From IMG/VR virus record IMGVR_UViG_3300021233_000222, positions 1-37,387 of that record: a DNA stretch of 37,387 nucleotides; one strand, given 5' to 3'. This document shows positions 1,782-16,774 of the stretch, one piece after another (position 1 is the first letter of the stretch; the number at the start of each line of letters is the position of its first letter). The position numbers were made by a program, and so were the translations under genes. The DNA comes from a virus. The notes beneath the pieces are model-generated. The model saw only the letters and a list, made by a program, of their open reading frames with translations. It ran no database searches and was not told where the DNA came from.

Positions 1782-3398
1782 TCAGTACGACCCTCCGGAT
1801 CGTACTGATAAAATCTCTCCCTCGACGTTGGTGACGCCGCTCAGGCAGAAGTAGCGCAGGACGTCGATCGGGTCTTTGAGCGCTCCGGTCTTGCCGTCCG
1901 CTCCGGTCCATTCCTTGAGCGCATGGATGGTGTTCTTGCAATCCTCCGCCACATAGAGCCTCGGCTGGTTCATGGCATCGACCGGCTTTCCCGTGTCGTA
2001 GTGAAGCCAGTCGTTGATCAGATCAATCCCCTCGTCGATATTGGTGCCGGGGGTGGCAACAAAGTTCAGGCCGATCTCGGCACATTCCTCGATCAGGGTC
2101 GTTGCGCTCTCCTTGGCGACCGTCGCGGCATTGCCATAGCGGCTGTCCATCCAGCGCTCAAAGACTTGCTCTCCTTTCTCCAGGCGCTCGATCTCCTCCT
2201 TGTAGCGCTCCAGCCCGAAGCCAAAGCTCTTCTGCGCGGGACCCGGCCTGCCATCGGCTTTCTTCCCATCGGGCTCGGCCCATGGACCCGCATATCCCAC
2301 GCCGTCGATGTAGTCGCTCCCAGGCCACTCCCGATAGACGAAGGCCCTGCCGGTCTCATCGAGCAGGAGCCAGATCATGAACCAGTTCCTCCCCGAGCAG
2401 GGATCGACAAACTGATACCGTGTCCCCTTCTCCGGGATGCGGGAGGATGGGATGACATGCACCTTGTCGTTGAAGAGCGGGAATCTCCCGGCAATCGCCT
2501 TGGTCGGGACTCCGTAGGCACGGCAAAGAATCTCAGGGCGTGATGCCTTCTCCAGCTCCTCCCTCATGCGGGTCCATCCTGCCCAGGGATTGTTCTTGGT
2601 ATGGAAGTAGAGCACGCTCGCCTTGCGCCGGACGCACCGCTGGATCACCGGCACCTTCTCATGGGAGACGATGAGGCGCTCTCCCTCCACCTCGCCATAG
2701 ATCGGAAGCAGCTCGGCATCGGTATCGTCCACCGTCTCGGCTCCGGTGAGGTAGTCTTTGACCGTGGCGCTGTATCCCTCGACCGGAGTGAAGGAGACGA
2801 GCAGCTTGCCGTTCCGATCCAGCAGGCGGTAGCGCATGGTCGTGAGCCAATCGAGCGGCACCAGCTCGTCGCACCAGATGATGTCCAGCTCGCCGCCCTC
2901 AATGGTGGAGACATCCTGGGCGTAGTTGCGGAACCAGCACTGAGAGCCATTCGGGAGGACAAAGGCATTCTCCGAGAAACCGTTCTTCTGCGAGTAAGAG
3001 ATATTGGTCACTTGGTTCTTCTTCGCGGTCTTCCACTCCAGCGGCATCATGTTCCAGATGTAGGGCTGCTGCATCTCGACGGAGTTGGGGGCCGTCGTCT
3101 GAAAGCACCAGGCTCGTGCTCTCGGCTTCTCCACCAAGGCACGCATCACCTCGCGTGCTGCCCAGGAGGATTTCCCCGAGCGGTTGCCCCCCATGACGAG
3201 GACTTCACGATCCCGCTCCAGGATCTCGCTGGCACGCTTCCAATGATCCGGAACGTAGCCGTGACGGAAGGGGTCCTCGCGCTCCTTGCGGATCAGCTCC
3301 TCGCGGAGCTGTGCCGCTGCCAGCCACTTGTCGGGAGGCAGCGTGGCCGGGGGGATCGGTAGCGCCGGATGAGGCGTGGGTGTCCAGGATTTAGACAT
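1782..3398 (-). CDS. terL: Terminase large subunit (DNA packaging ATPase and nuclease)
   Basis: This is the packaging motor that cuts and translocates DNA into the procapsid. The ATPase half shows a Walker A variant GGNRSGKS (residues 70-77), Walker B LDIIWCDE (171-178) and the coupling motif SFTP (202-205). The C-terminal half fits the RNase H-like nuclease: a first acidic strand at QFVDP (about 328-332) and later acidic positions including RWMDSRYG and INDWLHYD. The 538-residue length is usual. The start is an ATG preceded by a pyrimidine-rich heptamer array and no Shine-Dalgarno. A conserved 53-residue phage gene lies just upstream. No small terminase was identified with confidence. Confidence 0.93.
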   Translation of the reverse strand: MSKSWTPTPHPALPIPPATLPPDKWLAAAQLREELIRKEREDPFRHGYVPDHWKRASEILERDREVLVMGGNRSGKSSWAAREVMRALVEKPRARAWCFQTTAPNSVEMQQPYIWNMMPLEWKTAKKNQVTNISYSQKNGFSENAFVLPNGSQCWFRNYAQDVSTIEGGELDIIWCDELVPLDWLTTMRYRLLDRNGKLLVSFTPVEGYSATVKDYLTGAETVDDTDAELLPIYGEVEGERLIVSHEKVPVIQRCVRRKASVLYFHTKNNPWAGWTRMREELEKASRPEILCRAYGVPTKAIAGRFPLFNDKVHVIPSSRIPEKGTRYQFVDPCSGRNWFMIWLLLDETGRAFVYREWPGSDYIDGVGYAGPWAEPDGKKADGRPGPAQKSFGFGLERYKEEIERLEKGEQVFERWMDSRYGNAATVAKESATTLIEECAEIGLNFVATPGTNIDEGIDLINDWLHYDTGKPVDAMNQPRLYVAEDCKNTIHALKEWTGADGKTGALKDPIDVLRYFCLSGVTNVEGEILSVRSGGSY

Positions 3399-3432: not shown

Positions 3433-3594
3433 CTAGGGATGCGGCGGGACGGTGCGCTTGCCGATGGCTTTGGGGGGCGCTGGATTTCCTTTAGCCTTTA
3501 GCCTTTCGCCTTTAGCCTTTCCAAAAATCCGGTCGTAGTTCTCCCTGAACTTCGGACCGAGATTCCTCGGGGAGTCTCCTTTGCCTGCGCTCAT
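3433..3594 (-). CDS. Conserved small phage protein upstream of terminase (53 aa), with a heptamer repeat inside
   Basis: This short gene has an ATG at 3592-3594 that overlaps the upstream stop as ATGA, and a TAG at 3433-3435. The N-terminus MSAGKGDSPRNLG and FRENYDRIFGK is the pattern of a widespread small phage protein often found near the terminase; its role is unknown. Residues 26-37 (KAKGERLKAKG) are encoded by five tandem 7-mers (3488-3522), followed by a Pro/basic tail ending VPPHP. I infer that the repeat was inserted or expanded in a tolerant linker of a real gene. Confidence 0.75.
   Translation of the reverse strand: MSAGKGDSPRNLGPKFRENYDRIFGKAKGERLKAKGNPAPPKAIGKRTVPPHP
3488..3522 (-). 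repeat. CCTTTAG heptamer array inside a coding region
   Basis: Five tandem units on the plus strand: CCTTTAG twice, CCTTTCG, CCTTTAG and CCTTTCC. The mRNA form is purine-rich (CTAAAGG) and is translated as part of the 53-residue protein. Confidence 0.85.
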
Positions 3595-4208
3595 GCATCC
3601 TCCTTGGTGAAAGCTGTCTCCTGGGCATTGCGGCCTGCCTCGGCGTGCCAGGTCGTCGTGGCCATGACGCGGTAATCGAGCGGGTGGCCTGGCTTCACAA
3701 AGCTATCATCCCTCCAGACGATCCGGTTATTGGGCTGCGCCGCGATCTGACCGCTCCCATCCTCCAGAAGCAGGAGGTGGTAGCATTTATGCTCGGGGGG
3801 ATATTGGCTGTAGCCGTTATCCGTATGATCGAGTGTGAACCAGTAGCTTGCCGGGACCAACGATCCATCCCGCTTGCGGTAATGGCACCCCATTTCCCTG
3901 AGATACTCGTAATGCGTTACTGAGAAATCCCACCCATGGGCATCCCACATCTGAAGATCCGTTAGCTCGTGCTGTAGCTTTGCTGTGGGGATCTCATGCC
4001 GGAGCATCTGAAGCGGGATGCGCGCCCACTGCGCTCCGCTCTCGCAGAGGATGGAGAAGTGAAGCGCCCTTGATGGGATCGAGGTGACGCCAAAGATGAC
4101 GCACGGCTCGAATCCTGACTTGCTCCCATCCATTCCGTGCAGGATACAGCGGGAGACGTAGCCGTAGAGGTGGCGCGGCACGGAAGCATTAAGGCAATGG
4201 TGGTTCAC
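3591..4208 (-). CDS. Phage hypothetical protein (205 aa), full-length member of a duplicated pair
   Basis: I cannot assign a function. The protein is rich in aromatic residues, His and Cys and looks globular. Features include MNHHCLNASVPRHLYG at the start, a central ASYWFTLDHTDNGYSQYPPE, then CYHLLLLEDGSGQIAAQPNNRI and VWRDDSF. There is no signal peptide or membrane segment. The N-terminal 40 residues are repeated in the partial gene at the left edge, so the phage carries two diverged copies several kb apart in the same operon. Start and stop overlap both neighbours as ATGA. Confidence 0.75.
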   Translation of the reverse strand: MNHHCLNASVPRHLYGYVSRCILHGMDGSKSGFEPCVIFGVTSIPSRALHFSILCESGAQWARIPLQMLRHEIPTAKLQHELTDLQMWDAHGWDFSVTHYEYLREMGCHYRKRDGSLVPASYWFTLDHTDNGYSQYPPEHKCYHLLLLEDGSGQIAAQPNNRIVWRDDSFVKPGHPLDYRVMATTTWHAEAGRNAQETAFTKEDA

Positions 4209-5105: not shown

Positions 5106-6479
5106 CTAGTATTTCTGACGTTTTTCTTTGTTGTTGGTGTAGAGGGTTTCCGTCGTGTTGTTGAACCGGGTGTATTCGGCCTCAAATTTGAGGTTCACCG
5201 TACCGACCGGGCCGTTGCGCTGCTTGGCGACGATCAGCTCGACGCTGCCGTCATCCAGGCTATTCCCATCGCTGTCCTTCATCCCCTTCTTGGGACGATG
5301 CAGCATCACCACGATGTCAGCATCCTGCTCGATCTGGCCGCTCTCACGGAGGTCGGCCAGCTTGGGGGCGCTTCTTTCCTCGGCATTGCGGCCAAGCTGG
5401 GTGGCCGCGATGACCGGCACTCCGAGTTCCTTGGCCGTGGCCTTGAGCGCCATGCTGATCTCGGCCACCTCGTAGGCGCGGTTCTCCTGGGCTCGCTTGC
5501 TCGTGCTCCTCATAAGCTGGAGGTAGTCCACGACGATGCACTTGACCCCATGCTTGACGACGGCTCGCCGCGCACGGCCGCGAAAGTCGAAGATATTCAG
5601 GCTCGGGGTCTCGTCGATATGCAGCGGGAGCTGGCTGATGCTCGATGCGGCCACCGGCATGCGCTGCATGTCGGTACGGTTCATAAATCCGTCCCTCACT
5701 CGCTTGAGATCGAGGGGCATCTCGGAGCAGATCATCCGGCTGGCGAGATCAACTCCCGTCATTTCTAACGAGAATATGGCCACGGGAATGCCATTCTGCG
5801 CCATCGAGGTAGCCCACTGGACGGATAGCGCACTCTTTCCCATGCCGGGACGACCAGCCACCACGACCATCTGGCCGGGACGCAGGCCCCCCGTCATGCG
5901 GTCGAAATCCGTGGTCATCGTTGCAAGGCCGACGCATTTCCCCCTGTTTTTGTAGGTGCTCTCGATTCCCTCGATGGCCTCCATGACGTAGCTCTGGATG
6001 GGCCTGAGCGATGTCTCGGCCTTGGTGCCTCCCCTGAGCTGGAGCCATCGGGCCTCCACCTCATTAAGCAGGACATGGGGCTCGCTCACGCTCTCCACCG
6101 CCACCCTGGCCGTCTCATTGGCAGCACGCAGGATGGAGCGCCGCATGGCTTTATCCCGGAGGATGTCGGCATAGGCCATGACGTTGCCAGCGGTAGGCAG
6201 GAAGATCGCCACCTCTGTCAGGTAGGCGGGATTCTCCTTGATGACGGCCTGATCCCGCAGCGCATCGGAGAGGCTAATCAGGTCGATGGGCTTGCGGTCC
6301 ATGAAGCGCTGCTTGAGGCACTCCCAGATCACCATGTGCGTGGGATCAAAGAAGTGATCCCCGGTGATGTCCCCAAGCTCCTCCATGCACTCGGGCTGGA
6401 GCATGACGGAGCAGAGGACGCCGCGCTCGGCATCTCCATTCCACGGGACGCCTCCCTTGGGTGTTGGCTCGTTTAGCAT
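5106..6479 (-). CDS. dnaB: Replicative DNA helicase, DnaB family
   Basis: This is a hexameric 5'-3' helicase for phage DNA replication. The N-terminal helical domain (about residues 12-120) contains the usual AERGVL, FFDPTH and FLPTAGNV segments. The RecA-like domain has Walker A GRPGMGKS (209-216), Walker B CIVVDYLQLM (314-323), the ATQL/DLRESGQIEQDAD motif (359-388) and a C-terminal KQRNGP motif whose R421 fits the arginine finger. The length of 457 residues is normal. No helicase loader or primase was found in the window, so the phage may use host factors or the upstream DUF1376 protein. Confidence 0.95.
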   Translation of the reverse strand: MLNEPTPKGGVPWNGDAERGVLCSVMLQPECMEELGDITGDHFFDPTHMVIWECLKQRFMDRKPIDLISLSDALRDQAVIKENPAYLTEVAIFLPTAGNVMAYADILRDKAMRRSILRAANETARVAVESVSEPHVLLNEVEARWLQLRGGTKAETSLRPIQSYVMEAIEGIESTYKNRGKCVGLATMTTDFDRMTGGLRPGQMVVVAGRPGMGKSALSVQWATSMAQNGIPVAIFSLEMTGVDLASRMICSEMPLDLKRVRDGFMNRTDMQRMPVAASSISQLPLHIDETPSLNIFDFRGRARRAVVKHGVKCIVVDYLQLMRSTSKRAQENRAYEVAEISMALKATAKELGVPVIAATQLGRNAEERSAPKLADLRESGQIEQDADIVVMLHRPKKGMKDSDGNSLDDGSVELIVAKQRNGPVGTVNLKFEAEYTRFNNTTETLYTNNKEKRQKY

Positions 6480-11454: not shown

Positions 11455-11652
11455 TCAGCCAACGAGACGCCGAGCAATGAACTCATCCAGGGCCGCTTCC
11501 GAGATCCGGCGGTCCTTGCCGGATAGCCATAGGACTTTCCCAAGCTCCCCTTTCCGTATGTAGTTGGCCAGCGTGTTCAAATGGATATTGAGCCGGTCAC
11601 AGACTTCCCGACTAGTCAGCCAACGGGGAGGTGTTGAATTCTTGTCGCTCAT
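11455..11652 (-). CDS. MerR-type HTH protein, excisionase-like (65 aa)
   Basis: Residues 12-34 (LTSREVCDRLNIHLNTLANYI) and the wing with GKVLWLSGKDRRIS match the HTH_17/excisionase family of small winged-helix DNA-binding proteins. Such proteins serve as recombination directionality factors or early regulators. The start at 11650-11652 overlaps the previous stop as ATGA. Its place in the early operon, divergent from the integrase side, fits an excisionase, but no experiment supports that here. Confidence 0.65.
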   Translation of the reverse strand: MSDKNSTPPRWLTSREVCDRLNIHLNTLANYIRKGELGKVLWLSGKDRRISEAALDEFIARRLVG

Positions 11653-11870: not shown

Positions 11871-12001
11871 TTCCTAATCCTCCGGTTAGCCGTTCCATAA
11901 AAAAAACGGGCGGCGGCGGAAGAGATCGGGCCGGAGTAGATGGCGACAAAACCAATGACGCCCACAGCCAGAAGATTGAAGATGAAGGCGTGCGCGCTCA
12001 T
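11867..12001 (-). CDS. Small single-pass membrane protein (44 aa)
   Basis: The ATG at 11999-12001 overlaps the RHH gene stop as ATGA, and its TGA overlaps the next ATG the same way; such double coupling is unlikely by chance. Residues 5-25 (AFIFNLLAVGVIGFVAIYSG) form one hydrophobic membrane segment, followed by a basic tail (TANRRIRK). The role is unknown. As a membrane peptide made immediately after a regulator it could act in superinfection control or host membrane modulation, but this is conjecture. Confidence 0.65.
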   Translation of the reverse strand: MSAHAFIFNLLAVGVIGFVAIYSGPISSAAARFFYGTANRRIRK

Positions 12002-12186
12002 TCGCCTGCCTCCTCGTGGGTCGGATGCAATTCGCTTGTGCCACATTTACCATCCAAAAAATCACGGATTGCAATGCGAGCAAGGTCAGATGGTTTCAGC
12101 CAGTGTTTATCGGCTTCGGCGCGTAGTCTTGCTTTTAGTTCATTCGGCATTCTCATGGTCAACGTGGTGTCGAGTTGATTTTGCAT
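11998..12186 (-). CDS. Ribbon-helix-helix regulator heading the leftward operon (62 aa)
   Basis: The sequence DTTLTMRMPNELKARLRAEADKHWLKPSDLARIAIRDFLDG is a standard RHH (Arc/CopG/MetJ) fold: a short strand, then two helices with the KPSD turn. I chose the ATG at 12184-12186. A GTG at 12211-12213 would add nine residues and would place one operator inside the gene. The 62-residue length is typical of small RHH repressors. It is divergent from another RHH gene at 12277, and TTGTGCCACAT sites lie between and inside them. It probably represses one or both promoters. Confidence 0.75.
   Translation of the reverse strand: MQNQLDTTLTMRMPNELKARLRAEADKHWLKPSDLARIAIRDFLDGKCGTSELHPTHEEAGE
12036..12046 (+). 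promoter_or_regulatory. Operator-like site inside the RHH gene (third copy of TTGTGCCACAT)
   Basis: This copy lies within the RHH coding region. With the 12203-12215 site it shares 13 bp (GCTTGTGCCACAT). The core TGTG-C-CACA is an inverted repeat. Its centre is 169 bp from the middle copy, close to sixteen helical turns. Confidence 0.55.
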
Positions 12187-12276
12187 GCGCTGTTTGTAGC
12201 TTGCTTGTGCCACATGTCAAACACAAATAAGCAAAAATCTTATAGCGCTGAATTTTCATTGTGCCACATTGACAGT
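12187..12276. promoter_or_regulatory. Divergent promoter and operator region between two RHH genes
   Basis: Two copies of TTGTGCCACAT lie at 12205-12215 and 12259-12269, 54 bp apart (about five turns). Each holds the symmetric core TGTG-C-CACA. On the minus strand a -10-like TATAAG (complement of 12238-12243) has an operator where its -35 would be, and a TTGACA (complement of 12215-12220) lies beside the other operator. I infer that one or both RHH proteins bind here and control both directions. This is likely the lysis/lysogeny or early control switch; the promoters themselves are weakly supported. Confidence 0.6.
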
Positions 12277-12528
12277 ATGAAAAGGGAAAGCACCTTCAAC
12301 TTTAGACTCCCGAAAGAATTAAAAGCCCGACTAGACGCCTTTTGCGCGGCCAGGGGCATGAGCAAAGCGGACCTCGCCGTAACAGCAATAACCGAATTTC
12401 TCGATTCCGTTCAAAACCTTGAGAGAGCCCACTTGATAAGCCGGATCTATCCCGTGCAGGATGTCGAAGCACTCCGAGCCGCTGAAAAGCCTCACCAGCA
12501 CAGCCCGAGACGGTCCGCTGGCGCATAG
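12277..12528 (+). CDS. Ribbon-helix-helix regulator, rightward (83 aa)
   Basis: The N-terminal 45 residues are an RHH domain: strand STFNFRLP, helix KELKARLDAFCAARG, turn MSKAD and helix LAVTAITEFLDSVQ. The start is the ATG at 12277, just after an operator-like site; a frame open further upstream would read through both operators and is rejected. The last 38 residues are unlike the RHH fold and may be an effector or tail. It resembles the divergent RHH protein (both contain LPKELKARL or MPNELKARL), suggesting an old duplication. Confidence 0.75.
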   Translation: MKRESTFNFRLPKELKARLDAFCAARGMSKADLAVTAITEFLDSVQNLERAHLISRIYPVQDVEALRAAEKPHQHSPRRSAGA

Positions 12529-12878: not shown

Positions 12879-13151
12879 ATGAAAAAACCCGAACTGAACG
12901 GCCATGGTCCCGGCAAAGGGAAGCACTCCATCAGCTCCACCGTCACGCTCGAGGTCCTTGAGGCCCTCGACTACCTCGCGCACCGCTCCGGGCTCACCCG
13001 CGGCGGATACGTTGCGGCGGCAGTCAATGCGGCCGTGCTCTCCGGCTCCATCTTCCCGCGGGCGACGGCCGCCGTTCCACTACCCGCAGAGACCGCAAGA
13101 AAAGCCCGGCAGTCCGTTACCAGGACAAGACGCGAAAGCTCGCGGAGCTAG
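12879..13151 (+). CDS. Third ribbon-helix-helix-like protein (90 aa)
   Basis: After a Gly/Lys-rich N-terminus, residues 17-53 (SISSTVTLEVLEALDYL, AHRSGLTRGGYVAAAVNAAV) read as an RHH: strand, helix, LTRG turn, helix. The C-terminus is basic and Ser/Arg-rich (TRTRRESSRS). It begins two bases after the lipoprotein stop. It may be a DNA-binding regulator of this module or an antitoxin-like protein, but there is no toxin partner beside it. Confidence 0.55.
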   Translation: MKKPELNGHGPGKGKHSISSTVTLEVLEALDYLAHRSGLTRGGYVAAAVNAAVLSGSIFPRATAAVPLPAETARKARQSVTRTRRESSRS

Positions 13152-13282: not shown

Positions 13283-14155
13283 ATGCAAACGCAAACCAAC
13301 ACCCCGGCAGCCTACCAAGTCATCACCGACCGACTCGTTGCCATGCTGGAGGCAGGCACGGCACCTTGGAAGAAATCATGGGCAGGCCGTTCCGGGTTTC
13401 CCAAAAACCTGATCAGCAAGAAAGCCTACTCCGGCATCAATACATGGATGCTGCACACCTCCGATTATGCCAGCAGCTACTTCCTCACCTTCAACCAGGC
13501 AAAGGAACTCGGCGGCACCGTCCGGAAGGGGGAGAAAGGGCTTCCCGTTGTCTTCACAAAGCAGCTTCCCGTGAAATCTGTTGAGGTTCAAACCGACAAG
13601 GGAACAGAGACCATGATCGACGGGAAGAGCGGCGGCAGGATGCTTCGCTATTACACCGTATTCAACGTCGAGCAGTGCGAAGGGATCGAGGCCCCGGATT
13701 CTGGCCAGCGCTACCAGCATGACCCCATCGACACCGCCGAGAAGATTGTTTCCGGAATGCCTAACCGGCCGCAAATCGAGCACAGAGGAGGCCGTGCCTG
13801 CTATGCCCCTGAGTCCGATATTGTGACGATGCCGGAGGCCGACCGCTTCACCTCGCGGCCGGGCTACTACTCCACATTATTCCACGAACTAGCACACAGC
13901 ACCGGGCACGGGTCCCGGCTGGATCGCCAGATTTCAAATGATTTCGGGTCAAACCCCTATGCGAAAGAGGAATTGGTTGCGGAGATGGCAAGCGCCTATC
14001 TATGCGCCCAGGCAGGAATTGAGCAAAGCACCATCGAAAACCAGGCCGCATATCTGAACGGATGGATACAGGCACTCAAAGGTGACGCGAGGCTGGCCGT
14101 CCAGGCCGCAAGCGCCGCACAAAAGGCCGCCAACTACATCCTCGCCGCCGCTTAA
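13283..14155 (+). CDS. ardC: ArdC-like antirestriction protein (290 aa)
   Basis: The N-terminal half fits the ArdC single-stranded DNA-binding domain: PWKKSWAG, NLISKKAYSGINTWML, FLTFNQAKELGGTVRKGEKG and RYYTVFNVEQC. The C-terminal half is a zincin-like metallopeptidase with HELAHSTGH (residues 201-209) and EELVAEMASAYL (229-240), which supplies the third metal ligand. ArdC proteins protect incoming DNA from restriction and are known on plasmids and phages. The 290-residue length is usual. The start is preceded by an A/C-rich leader with no Shine-Dalgarno. It heads a rightward string of small overlapping genes. Confidence 0.92.
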   Translation: MQTQTNTPAAYQVITDRLVAMLEAGTAPWKKSWAGRSGFPKNLISKKAYSGINTWMLHTSDYASSYFLTFNQAKELGGTVRKGEKGLPVVFTKQLPVKSVEVQTDKGTETMIDGKSGGRMLRYYTVFNVEQCEGIEAPDSGQRYQHDPIDTAEKIVSGMPNRPQIEHRGGRACYAPESDIVTMPEADRFTSRPGYYSTLFHELAHSTGHGSRLDRQISNDFGSNPYAKEELVAEMASAYLCAQAGIEQSTIENQAAYLNGWIQALKGDARLAVQAASAAQKAANYILAAA

Positions 14156-15529: not shown

Positions 15530-16774
15530 ATGAACGCCGAAAACACTACTGTCAGAACTGAGGTGATTGTTACCCATCGGGGGAAACGCTACACGCTTTG
15601 GATGCGCGGTGACAACTTCTATCTCCGGCTTAGAAAGCAAGGCCGACAGATATGGAAGACCCTCGGCACCTCCCTCAAGGAGCAGGCCGTTAAGCAGGCC
15701 AAGACTGAGTTGGATAAACTGGAGAAGAATGACTGGCAGCCAGCGCCCAAGAAACCCGAGGCGATAAAGGGCATGGCTAGCGTGGGCGATCTTGTTGAGC
15801 GCTATCAGGCGGCAGACCGCGACATGGATCGCGGGACTAAGCTGAACTACATCGCCGCCTTAAAGACCCTCCTGAGAGTTGTTACCGGCAAGGAAGACCC
15901 ACTTACGCTACCGGCTACCATCCTTTCAGAAGAGACCCTAGACGCCTACATCAAAGCCGAGCGAGGCAAGGGCAGGCCCGATCACAGCATCCATGCCAGC
16001 CTGACGCAGGCCAGGTGCATCGTCAGCCCAAAAGTAATGTCTCTCTACAAGGGCCTAATCCTTCCAAACCTCGACGGATTTAGGGCCAAGCGGGACTTCA
16101 AGGGAGATCGAGACGCTGGATTCGTCAAGTTCAGCAGAGAGGAGGCGGCGGCTATCGAAACCCGAGCAGCGGAGCTACTGGCAGCAAAGTCGCCAGTATG
16201 GATTGCATTTGCCTTCATGGCTCGCCTGGCCATGAGAAACATTGACGTGTACCGCGCCAAGTGGAGCGACATCGTGGAGGGGGTTGAGTACCACGATGGG
16301 AAACCCGTTGAGAAGCGATGGATTCGCGTTAAAGCCAACTATATGGAAGCCCTCGCCGCTACCGTTGAGATCGAGGATGACCTATGGAAAAGCCTTCAGC
16401 TTTACAAGCCATCCACCTGCACCCATCCACCGACCATTGGCGACAAAGGGGAGCCGATCCCTTGTGAACTCTGCGCCCATATCATTCCAGCCAAGACAAA
16501 CAAACAGAGGGAGGACATCTGTTATCGTGATATATGCGACCGGTTCCGCGACGTCATTGTTGGCAGGAGAAAGATCGCCTACGAGCTGCGGCGCTGGGCC
16601 GGATCTATTGTTTATACCAAGCATGGAAGCGATGCATCACGGCAAACACTTCGCCACAAGAGCGTTGTGACTGCCGAGCGGTACTACGCAGCCGAGTTAC
16701 GCGGAGCGAAAAGTGCTTCTTCTACAGATGTCGCAGACATCTACGGACTCACCACACAACCCACCACCCAATGA
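15530..16774 (+). CDS. int: Tyrosine integrase (414 aa)
   Basis: A site-specific recombinase for phage integration at tRNA-Thr. The N-terminal 70 residues (RGKRYTLWMRGDNFYLRLRK) act as an arm-binding-like domain; a SAM-like core-binding domain follows (about 85-190). Catalytic candidates are R236 (AMRN), K268, R354 in YELRR (His of the usual HxxR is Tyr here), H376 (LRHKS) and Y385 or Y386 (ERYY). Between about 295 and 320 an insertion holds C297, C312, C315 and H317, suggesting a small metal site. The start lies immediately right of the attP arms, and the stop overlaps the next gene. Confidence 0.92.
   Translation: MNAENTTVRTEVIVTHRGKRYTLWMRGDNFYLRLRKQGRQIWKTLGTSLKEQAVKQAKTELDKLEKNDWQPAPKKPEAIKGMASVGDLVERYQAADRDMDRGTKLNYIAALKTLLRVVTGKEDPLTLPATILSEETLDAYIKAERGKGRPDHSIHASLTQARCIVSPKVMSLYKGLILPNLDGFRAKRDFKGDRDAGFVKFSREEAAAIETRAAELLAAKSPVWIAFAFMARLAMRNIDVYRAKWSDIVEGVEYHDGKPVEKRWIRVKANYMEALAATVEIEDDLWKSLQLYKPSTCTHPPTIGDKGEPIPCELCAHIIPAKTNKQREDICYRDICDRFRDVIVGRRKIAYELRRWAGSIVYTKHGSDASRQTLRHKSVVTAERYYAAELRGAKSASSTDVADIYGLTTQPTTQ

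Follow-up and report, generated by a model that had tools for sequence, protein, structure and literature searches.

A divergent pair of ribbon-helix-helix genes with shared operator-like sites as the probable lysis-lysogeny switch of a temperate phage

Lysis-lysogeny switches are a textbook case of gene regulation, and to our knowledge almost all of those studied use helix-turn-helix (HTH) repressors. Could a temperate phage base its immunity on ribbon-helix-helix (RHH) proteins instead? The question is raised by a locus in the viral record IMGVR_UViG_3300021233_000222 (IMG/VR; 38,947 bases), of which 37,387 nt were analysed and are here called the window. Two divergent RHH genes, RHH1 and RHH2, are found there together with three copies of the palindrome TGTGSCACA (S being C or G). 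On account of its anatomy, its conservation and the exchange of the corresponding cassette in relatives, the locus is considered to be, with good probability, the primary switch, or immunity region, of a temperate phage, in which both genes share the palindrome, RHH2 acting in a CI-like and RHH1 in a Cro- or MOR-like manner.

Exact copies of TTGTGCCACAT were found in the window at 12036-12046, 12205-12215 and 12259-12269, as reported in an earlier note on this DNA. The 9-bp core TGTGSCACA was confined to these three sites when the 38.9-kb record was scanned. All three cores read TGTGCCACA and were named O1 (12206..12214, within the -35/-10 spacer of a proposed leftward promoter, PL), O2 (12260..12268, directly ahead of the RHH2 start codon) and O3 (12037..12045). 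The latter covers codons 48-51 at the 3' end of RHH1, so the claim that one copy lies within a regulator gene is correct. The centre-to-centre distances of 169 and 54 bp given in the earlier note are also correct; the whole helical turns that it read into them are approximate, since 10.5 bp per turn gives 16.1 and 5.1 turns. In a shuffle test, one occurrence of three 4+1+4 palindromes with the same arms within 240 bp was observed against a simulated mean of 0.035; it is the comparison with relatives, described below, that takes the case beyond chance.

RHH1 (11998..12186, minus strand) encodes a 62-residue RHH protein beginning with MQNQLDTTLTMRMP and heads the leftward lytic operon. RHH2 (12277..12528, plus strand) encodes an RHH protein of 83 residues beginning with MKRESTFNFRLP and heads the rightward integrase operon. 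The two proteins display 44% identity over 41 residues, which bears out the description of two similar, diverging genes. RHH1 matched the profile of ORF56, an RHH protein of solved structure (E 1.2e-4), and its AlphaFold model came nearest to ORF56, CopG and Arc (Foldseek probability up to 0.97, with E-values that are not significant). RHH2 matched the Arc-like repressor family of PHROG (5e-5) and contains the strand motif FNFR known from Mnt of phage P22. A search of annotated phages with the RHH2 protein returned a weak match to a Sulfolobus virus RHH protein only. The residues of the predicted strand are T-T-R in RHH1 and T-N-R in RHH2, with an invariant arginine. The AlphaFold monomers of both proteins show two helices and no strand, the strand being expected only in the dimer, and their structural matches stayed below significance.

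Relatives were gathered by scanning viral contigs for paired TGTGSCACA sites, and searches with RHH1 and with RHH2 each gave the same eight contigs. The comparison set thus consists of nine contigs, window included (~262 kb), all of which contain the RHH1 gene; two of them (G007 and G008) are near-identical at the switch locus and were counted as one independent case. The core TGTG[C/G]CACA is present in 25 exact copies, all at the three switch positions and none elsewhere, which excludes the common repeat that the earlier note had considered as a possible source of the motif. O1 is exact in nine of the nine contigs, O2 and O3 in eight each, the two non-exact sites being one-base variants (TGTGCCACt at O3 of G001 and TGTGCTACA at O2 of G002). 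The spacing, whose conservation had been proposed as a check, is maintained in all nine contigs at 54-55 bp between O1 and O2 and at 169-171 bp between O3 and O1. At O1 and O2 the centre base alternates between C and G and both arms are constant among the relatives, as expected of a symmetric binding site. The operators are the same in the window and in G007, whose proteins are 50% (terminase), 35% (capsid), 34% (DnaB) and 30% (integrase) identical to those of the window. The remaining matches of the operator-pair scan (L005, L007-L011, L016-L023, L026) were rejected as unrelated DNA. One of these unrelated viral contigs (L023, 11478-11537) shows ~60-bp tandem repeats, each with TTGTGCCACAATCTGCC.

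The codons of O3 were compared among the eight distinct RHH1 sequences. In codons 48-51 none of the four third positions varies, whereas the rest of RHH1 has 4 invariant third positions out of 44. Upstream of O3, 24 codons encode an invariant residue with a synonymous choice and none of these keeps one codon, while the two such codons inside O3 (GGC and ACA) never vary. The invariant synonymous positions indicate that O3 is conserved as DNA, and this comparison led to the rejection of chance or codon constraint as its origin. To judge from codon usage, O3 is under constraint at the DNA level.

Which promoters would these sites control? PL was proposed from conservation at 12193..12220 (minus strand), with TTGACA (12215-12220), a spacer of 16 bp, TACAAA (12193-12198) and 6 bp to the ATG of RHH1. 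All nine sequences display PL-like elements (TTGACW, 16 bp, TACAAN) with O1 in between and the ATG 6-8 bp past the -10 element, TTGAC and TACAA being retained in each of them. With this distance the RHH1 message would begin at or beside the ATG and would be leaderless. For the rightward promoter, PR, a putative -10 element TATAGC was located at 12241..12246 (plus strand); it is TATRGC-like in most relatives and TAGTGC in two, and no clear -35 element accompanies it. If this -10 element is adopted, the centre of O1 falls near -43 and that of O2 near +12. A simple consensus promoter scan called neither PL nor PR.

From this arrangement we infer the promoters, the protein that would occupy each site, any looping and the immunity that would result. 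Each TGTGSCACA site would most simply be bound by one RHH dimer. RHH2 at O1 would block the lytic promoter PL between its -35 and -10 elements, and the distal O3 within RHH1 would aid this repression, either via looping or as a roadblock. RHH1 would in turn shut off RHH2, most directly via O2 in the initial transcribed region of PR. By analogy with lambda CI, one may speculate that RHH2 bound at O1 might in addition activate its own promoter.

A nearly invariant 17-nt block, GTCAAACACAAATAAGC (12216..12232), adjoins O1 and contains the -35 element of PL. Its conservation is greater than this element alone requires, and the region (12216-12243 in the window) may represent another binding site. 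In most relatives the block is followed by an ATAAG...CTTAT inverted repeat, and a CACA half-site lies near it, 11 bp from a half-site of O1. The block bears on a variant of the switch model in which one protein only, probably RHH2, reads TGTGSCACA, RHH1 acting through protein contact in a MOR-like manner or through another site such as GTCAAACACAAATAAGC. The proximity of the unexplained block to O1, the unlike strand residues of the two proteins and the poor DNA binding of TP901-1 MOR on its own (PMC7250872) all favour this variant. Against it, RHH1 and RHH2 are homologous and both possess a full RHH strand with the invariant arginine. The variant is a serious option, but less probable than the model in which both proteins would read the shared palindrome.

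A further indication of function came from close relatives in which the switch is replaced. Two contigs (G009 and G010) share their flanking genes with the window, and their terminase is 93% identical to its counterpart there. TGTGSCACA is absent from both, and each bears a different divergent RHH gene pair at the switch position. Both contigs keep the C-terminal ~20 residues (RAAENP...RSAGA) encoded by the rightward RHH gene, which places an exchange point inside this gene. In G010, two exact copies of CTCATGAG are present in 33 kb, at a distance of 170 bp. One lies in the spacer of a proposed PL (TTGACG-17-TTTACT) ahead of the lytic-side RHH gene, the other within the 3' end of this gene. 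In the 784 kb examined, this was the sole pair of identical 8-bp palindromes at a distance of 168-172 bp. A third type, common to G009, L186 and L190, shows the palindrome TTCTAACTAGAA over a proposed -10 element, and no in-gene copy of TTCTAACTAGAA was seen in the G009 type. The joint exchange of regulators and operators between phages that are near-identical elsewhere is a classical mark of an immunity region, and the replacement observed here is what immunity-cassette exchange would produce. Together with the conservation of the sites, this whole-cassette replacement supports the divergent RHH pair with shared operators and an in-gene operator that the earlier note had described. A further contig (G011) stops just short of the switch and was left out of the cassette typing. 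As to G009 itself (L147, L143, L148), its contig of 44,118 bases has a terminal overlap of 2,125 bases at 99.95% identity and probably represents a full genome with a length of about 41,993 bases.

Twenty further terminase-relative contigs (93-62% identical) were examined. Most of them gave no match to RHH2. Three more distant ones (~63% terminase identity) have an HTH_17 gene and an RHH gene in divergent orientation; in this clade (L163 and L164 (G022), L156 (G018), L162 (G021)) the lytic-side regulator is the HTH_17 protein and the integrase-side one is RHH. A profile scan of genome contigs with RHH2 found no relative and no TGTGSCACA-type prophage with a named host. A prophage was found in G303, a genome taken from the phylum to which a Pontiellaceae (Verrucomicrobiota) metagenome-assembled genome belongs. 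It contains a 39% identical terminase plus portal, integrase-like and other genes. A 65-residue RHH gene heads HTH_17 and lytic genes there and diverges from a gene for a 128-residue RHH-like protein, which was assigned by eye and is without a family match. TGCGTCATATGACGCA and a copy with two mismatches are separated by 52 bp and fall in the spacers of two opposed promoters, one in each. Verrucomicrobiota is the likely host phylum. On balance the data lean towards a class of primary immunity without HTH repressors in Verrucomicrobiota phages, in which divergent RHH pairs would act on palindromic operators in opposed promoters, often with one operator in the lytic-side gene, and in which specificities (TGTGSCACA, CTCATGAG, TTCTAACTAGAA, TGCGTCATATGACGCA) would be swapped with both regulators as one cassette.

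The genes around the switch are organized in two operons. Leftward from RHH1 follow a small membrane open reading frame (ORF), a 73-residue protein, an HTH_17 excisionase-like protein (11455..11652, minus strand; Pfam HTH_17 1.6e-12, PHROG excisionase and transcriptional regulator 1e-8), a primosomal protein, a DnaB-like helicase (5106..6479, minus strand; PHROG 1e-96) and the large terminase (1782..3398, minus strand; PHROG 1.9e-14). Rightward from RHH2 follow a lipoprotein-like ORF, a further RHH-like protein, ArdC and the integrase (15530..16774, plus strand; PHROG 6e-4), which occupies the same place in relatives reaching that far. The two-operon layout recurs in those relatives that extend far enough. 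HTH_3, Peptidase_S24 and HTH_19 gave zero matches in the nine contigs. This negative result covers two contigs with terminal repeats that are probably complete (G004 and G007, both of the TGTGSCACA type) and, for HTH_3 and HTH_19, also G009, which likewise has terminal repeats. A lytic operon on one side, an integrase operon on the other and no detectable HTH_3, HTH_19 or S24 protein support an immunity role of the RHH pair.

Other genes of the region deserve mention. The further RHH-like gene (12879-13151), downstream of RHH2, resembles the gene on the rightward side of the G009-type switch (52% over 48 residues), which suggests duplication or exchange between them. The ArdC-type anti-restriction protein (13283-14155) lies between switch and integrase; in L004 and G009 a RadC-like ORF, judged by eye, is found at its place. 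The lytic operon includes a ferredoxin-like gene (3591-4208; PHROG moron/auxiliary metabolic gene, 2.5e-34), which is 95% identical in G001 and was not detected in the other contigs.

Several points weigh against a primary RHH switch. The RHH domain scores are close to or under the Pfam cut-offs (19.7 bits for RHH2 against RHH_1, with a cut-off of 20.5). The -10 element of PL (TACAAN) is weak and was missed by the promoter scan, and the G009 type displays one operator without an in-gene copy. A repressor of another, unrecognised fold may exist. P22 provides an example of a divergent RHH pair that serves as a module of secondary immunity. The pair could be a secondary or accessory regulatory element like mnt/arc, with primary immunity held by an unrecognised protein. 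The literature searched offered no described divergent RHH pair other than P22 immI, and many of the phage proteins lack an assigned function. However, one gene of the pair leads the lytic operon and the other the integrase operon, HTH_3, HTH_19 and S24 proteins were not found, and close relatives swap exactly this cassette, all of which makes a secondary role unlikely. It is even harder to regard the RHH proteins as antitoxins of a toxin-antitoxin system controlling their own promoter. Weak NCBIfam matches to RelB-like antitoxins were obtained below cut-off, but no toxin family was matched among the scanned neighbours, which include small unassigned ORFs, and the two genes diverge towards a small membrane ORF, the 73-residue protein and HTH_17 on one side and a lipoprotein-like ORF and the integrase on the other. 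A chance, codon-driven or repeat origin of the three sites, for which the coding nature of one copy and the chance frequency of 1-mismatch copies in the window could be invoked, is practically refuted by the comparative data, since eight other contigs have the sites at the same positions, with swapped centres, constant arms and DNA-level conservation.

If the RHH pair is the primary switch, how does it compare with known ones? In the OR region of lambda, too, two divergent repressors share operators that lie between opposed promoters, as proposed here; the region differs in its HTH proteins, in its three adjacent operators and in having no in-gene operator. The operator topology matches that of TP901-1 (Lactococcus) and phi13 (Staphylococcus). 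In TP901-1 the repressor genes diverge, one operator covers the lytic promoter and a third lies in the distal part of mor (PMC7250872); the counterpart of this third operator would be O3. Related phages retain the topology of this CI-MOR switch while their operator sequences differ (PMC7250872, PMC8516035). Bistable immune and anti-immune states are a further mark of the TP901-1 type. In TP901-1, CI (with a dimerisation hook) and MOR are HTH proteins with other operators, whereas both regulators are RHH here and the operator is an odd palindrome of 9 bp. The operator arrangement already exists in an HTH-based switch, a precedent that the earlier note, though largely right, did not mention. The view that a two-RHH immunity system is unusual also needs a qualification: the layout and the lack of HTH_3, HTH_19 and S24 matches support the immunity role, but a divergent RHH pair has a precedent in mnt/arc of P22 immI.

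P22 immI resembles the present locus in that its two RHH genes diverge and share control DNA. Oarc occupies the -35/-10 spacer of Pant, just as O1 would occupy that of the proposed PL, and Mnt has the FNFR strand in common with RHH2. The P22 region controls an antirepressor within the late region and provides secondary immunity (PMC8022706). Arc and Mnt have separate operators, no in-gene operator is annotated in P22, and neither the control of ant nor a role secondary to HTH CI-type immunity was encountered here: no scanned protein matched an antirepressor, the lytic-side operon has HTH_17, primosomal and DnaB genes, and no HTH_3, S24 or HTH_19 protein was matched as a primary repressor, although one of another fold may exist. 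F55 of SSV1 is a small RHH protein that maintains lysogeny (PMC5569661), a role comparable to that proposed here. SSV1, however, is an archaeal virus with a single RHH regulator acting on tandem ATAGATAG sites, and no divergent RHH partner is described there, as opposed to the TGTGSCACA pair. In the open-licence literature searched, no description of a two-RHH primary switch was found, and no characterised switch of temperate Verrucomicrobiota phages turned up. The phages compared here could provide natural matched sets of proteins and operators for studies of RHH specificity, and immunity groups for temperate Verrucomicrobiota phages. The present system combines a P22-like protein fold with a TP901-1-like layout and shows all the defining features of neither. 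If confirmed, an RHH-only switch with the layout of TP901-1 and a conserved distal operator in the partner gene would mean that selection keeps the layout, not the fold.
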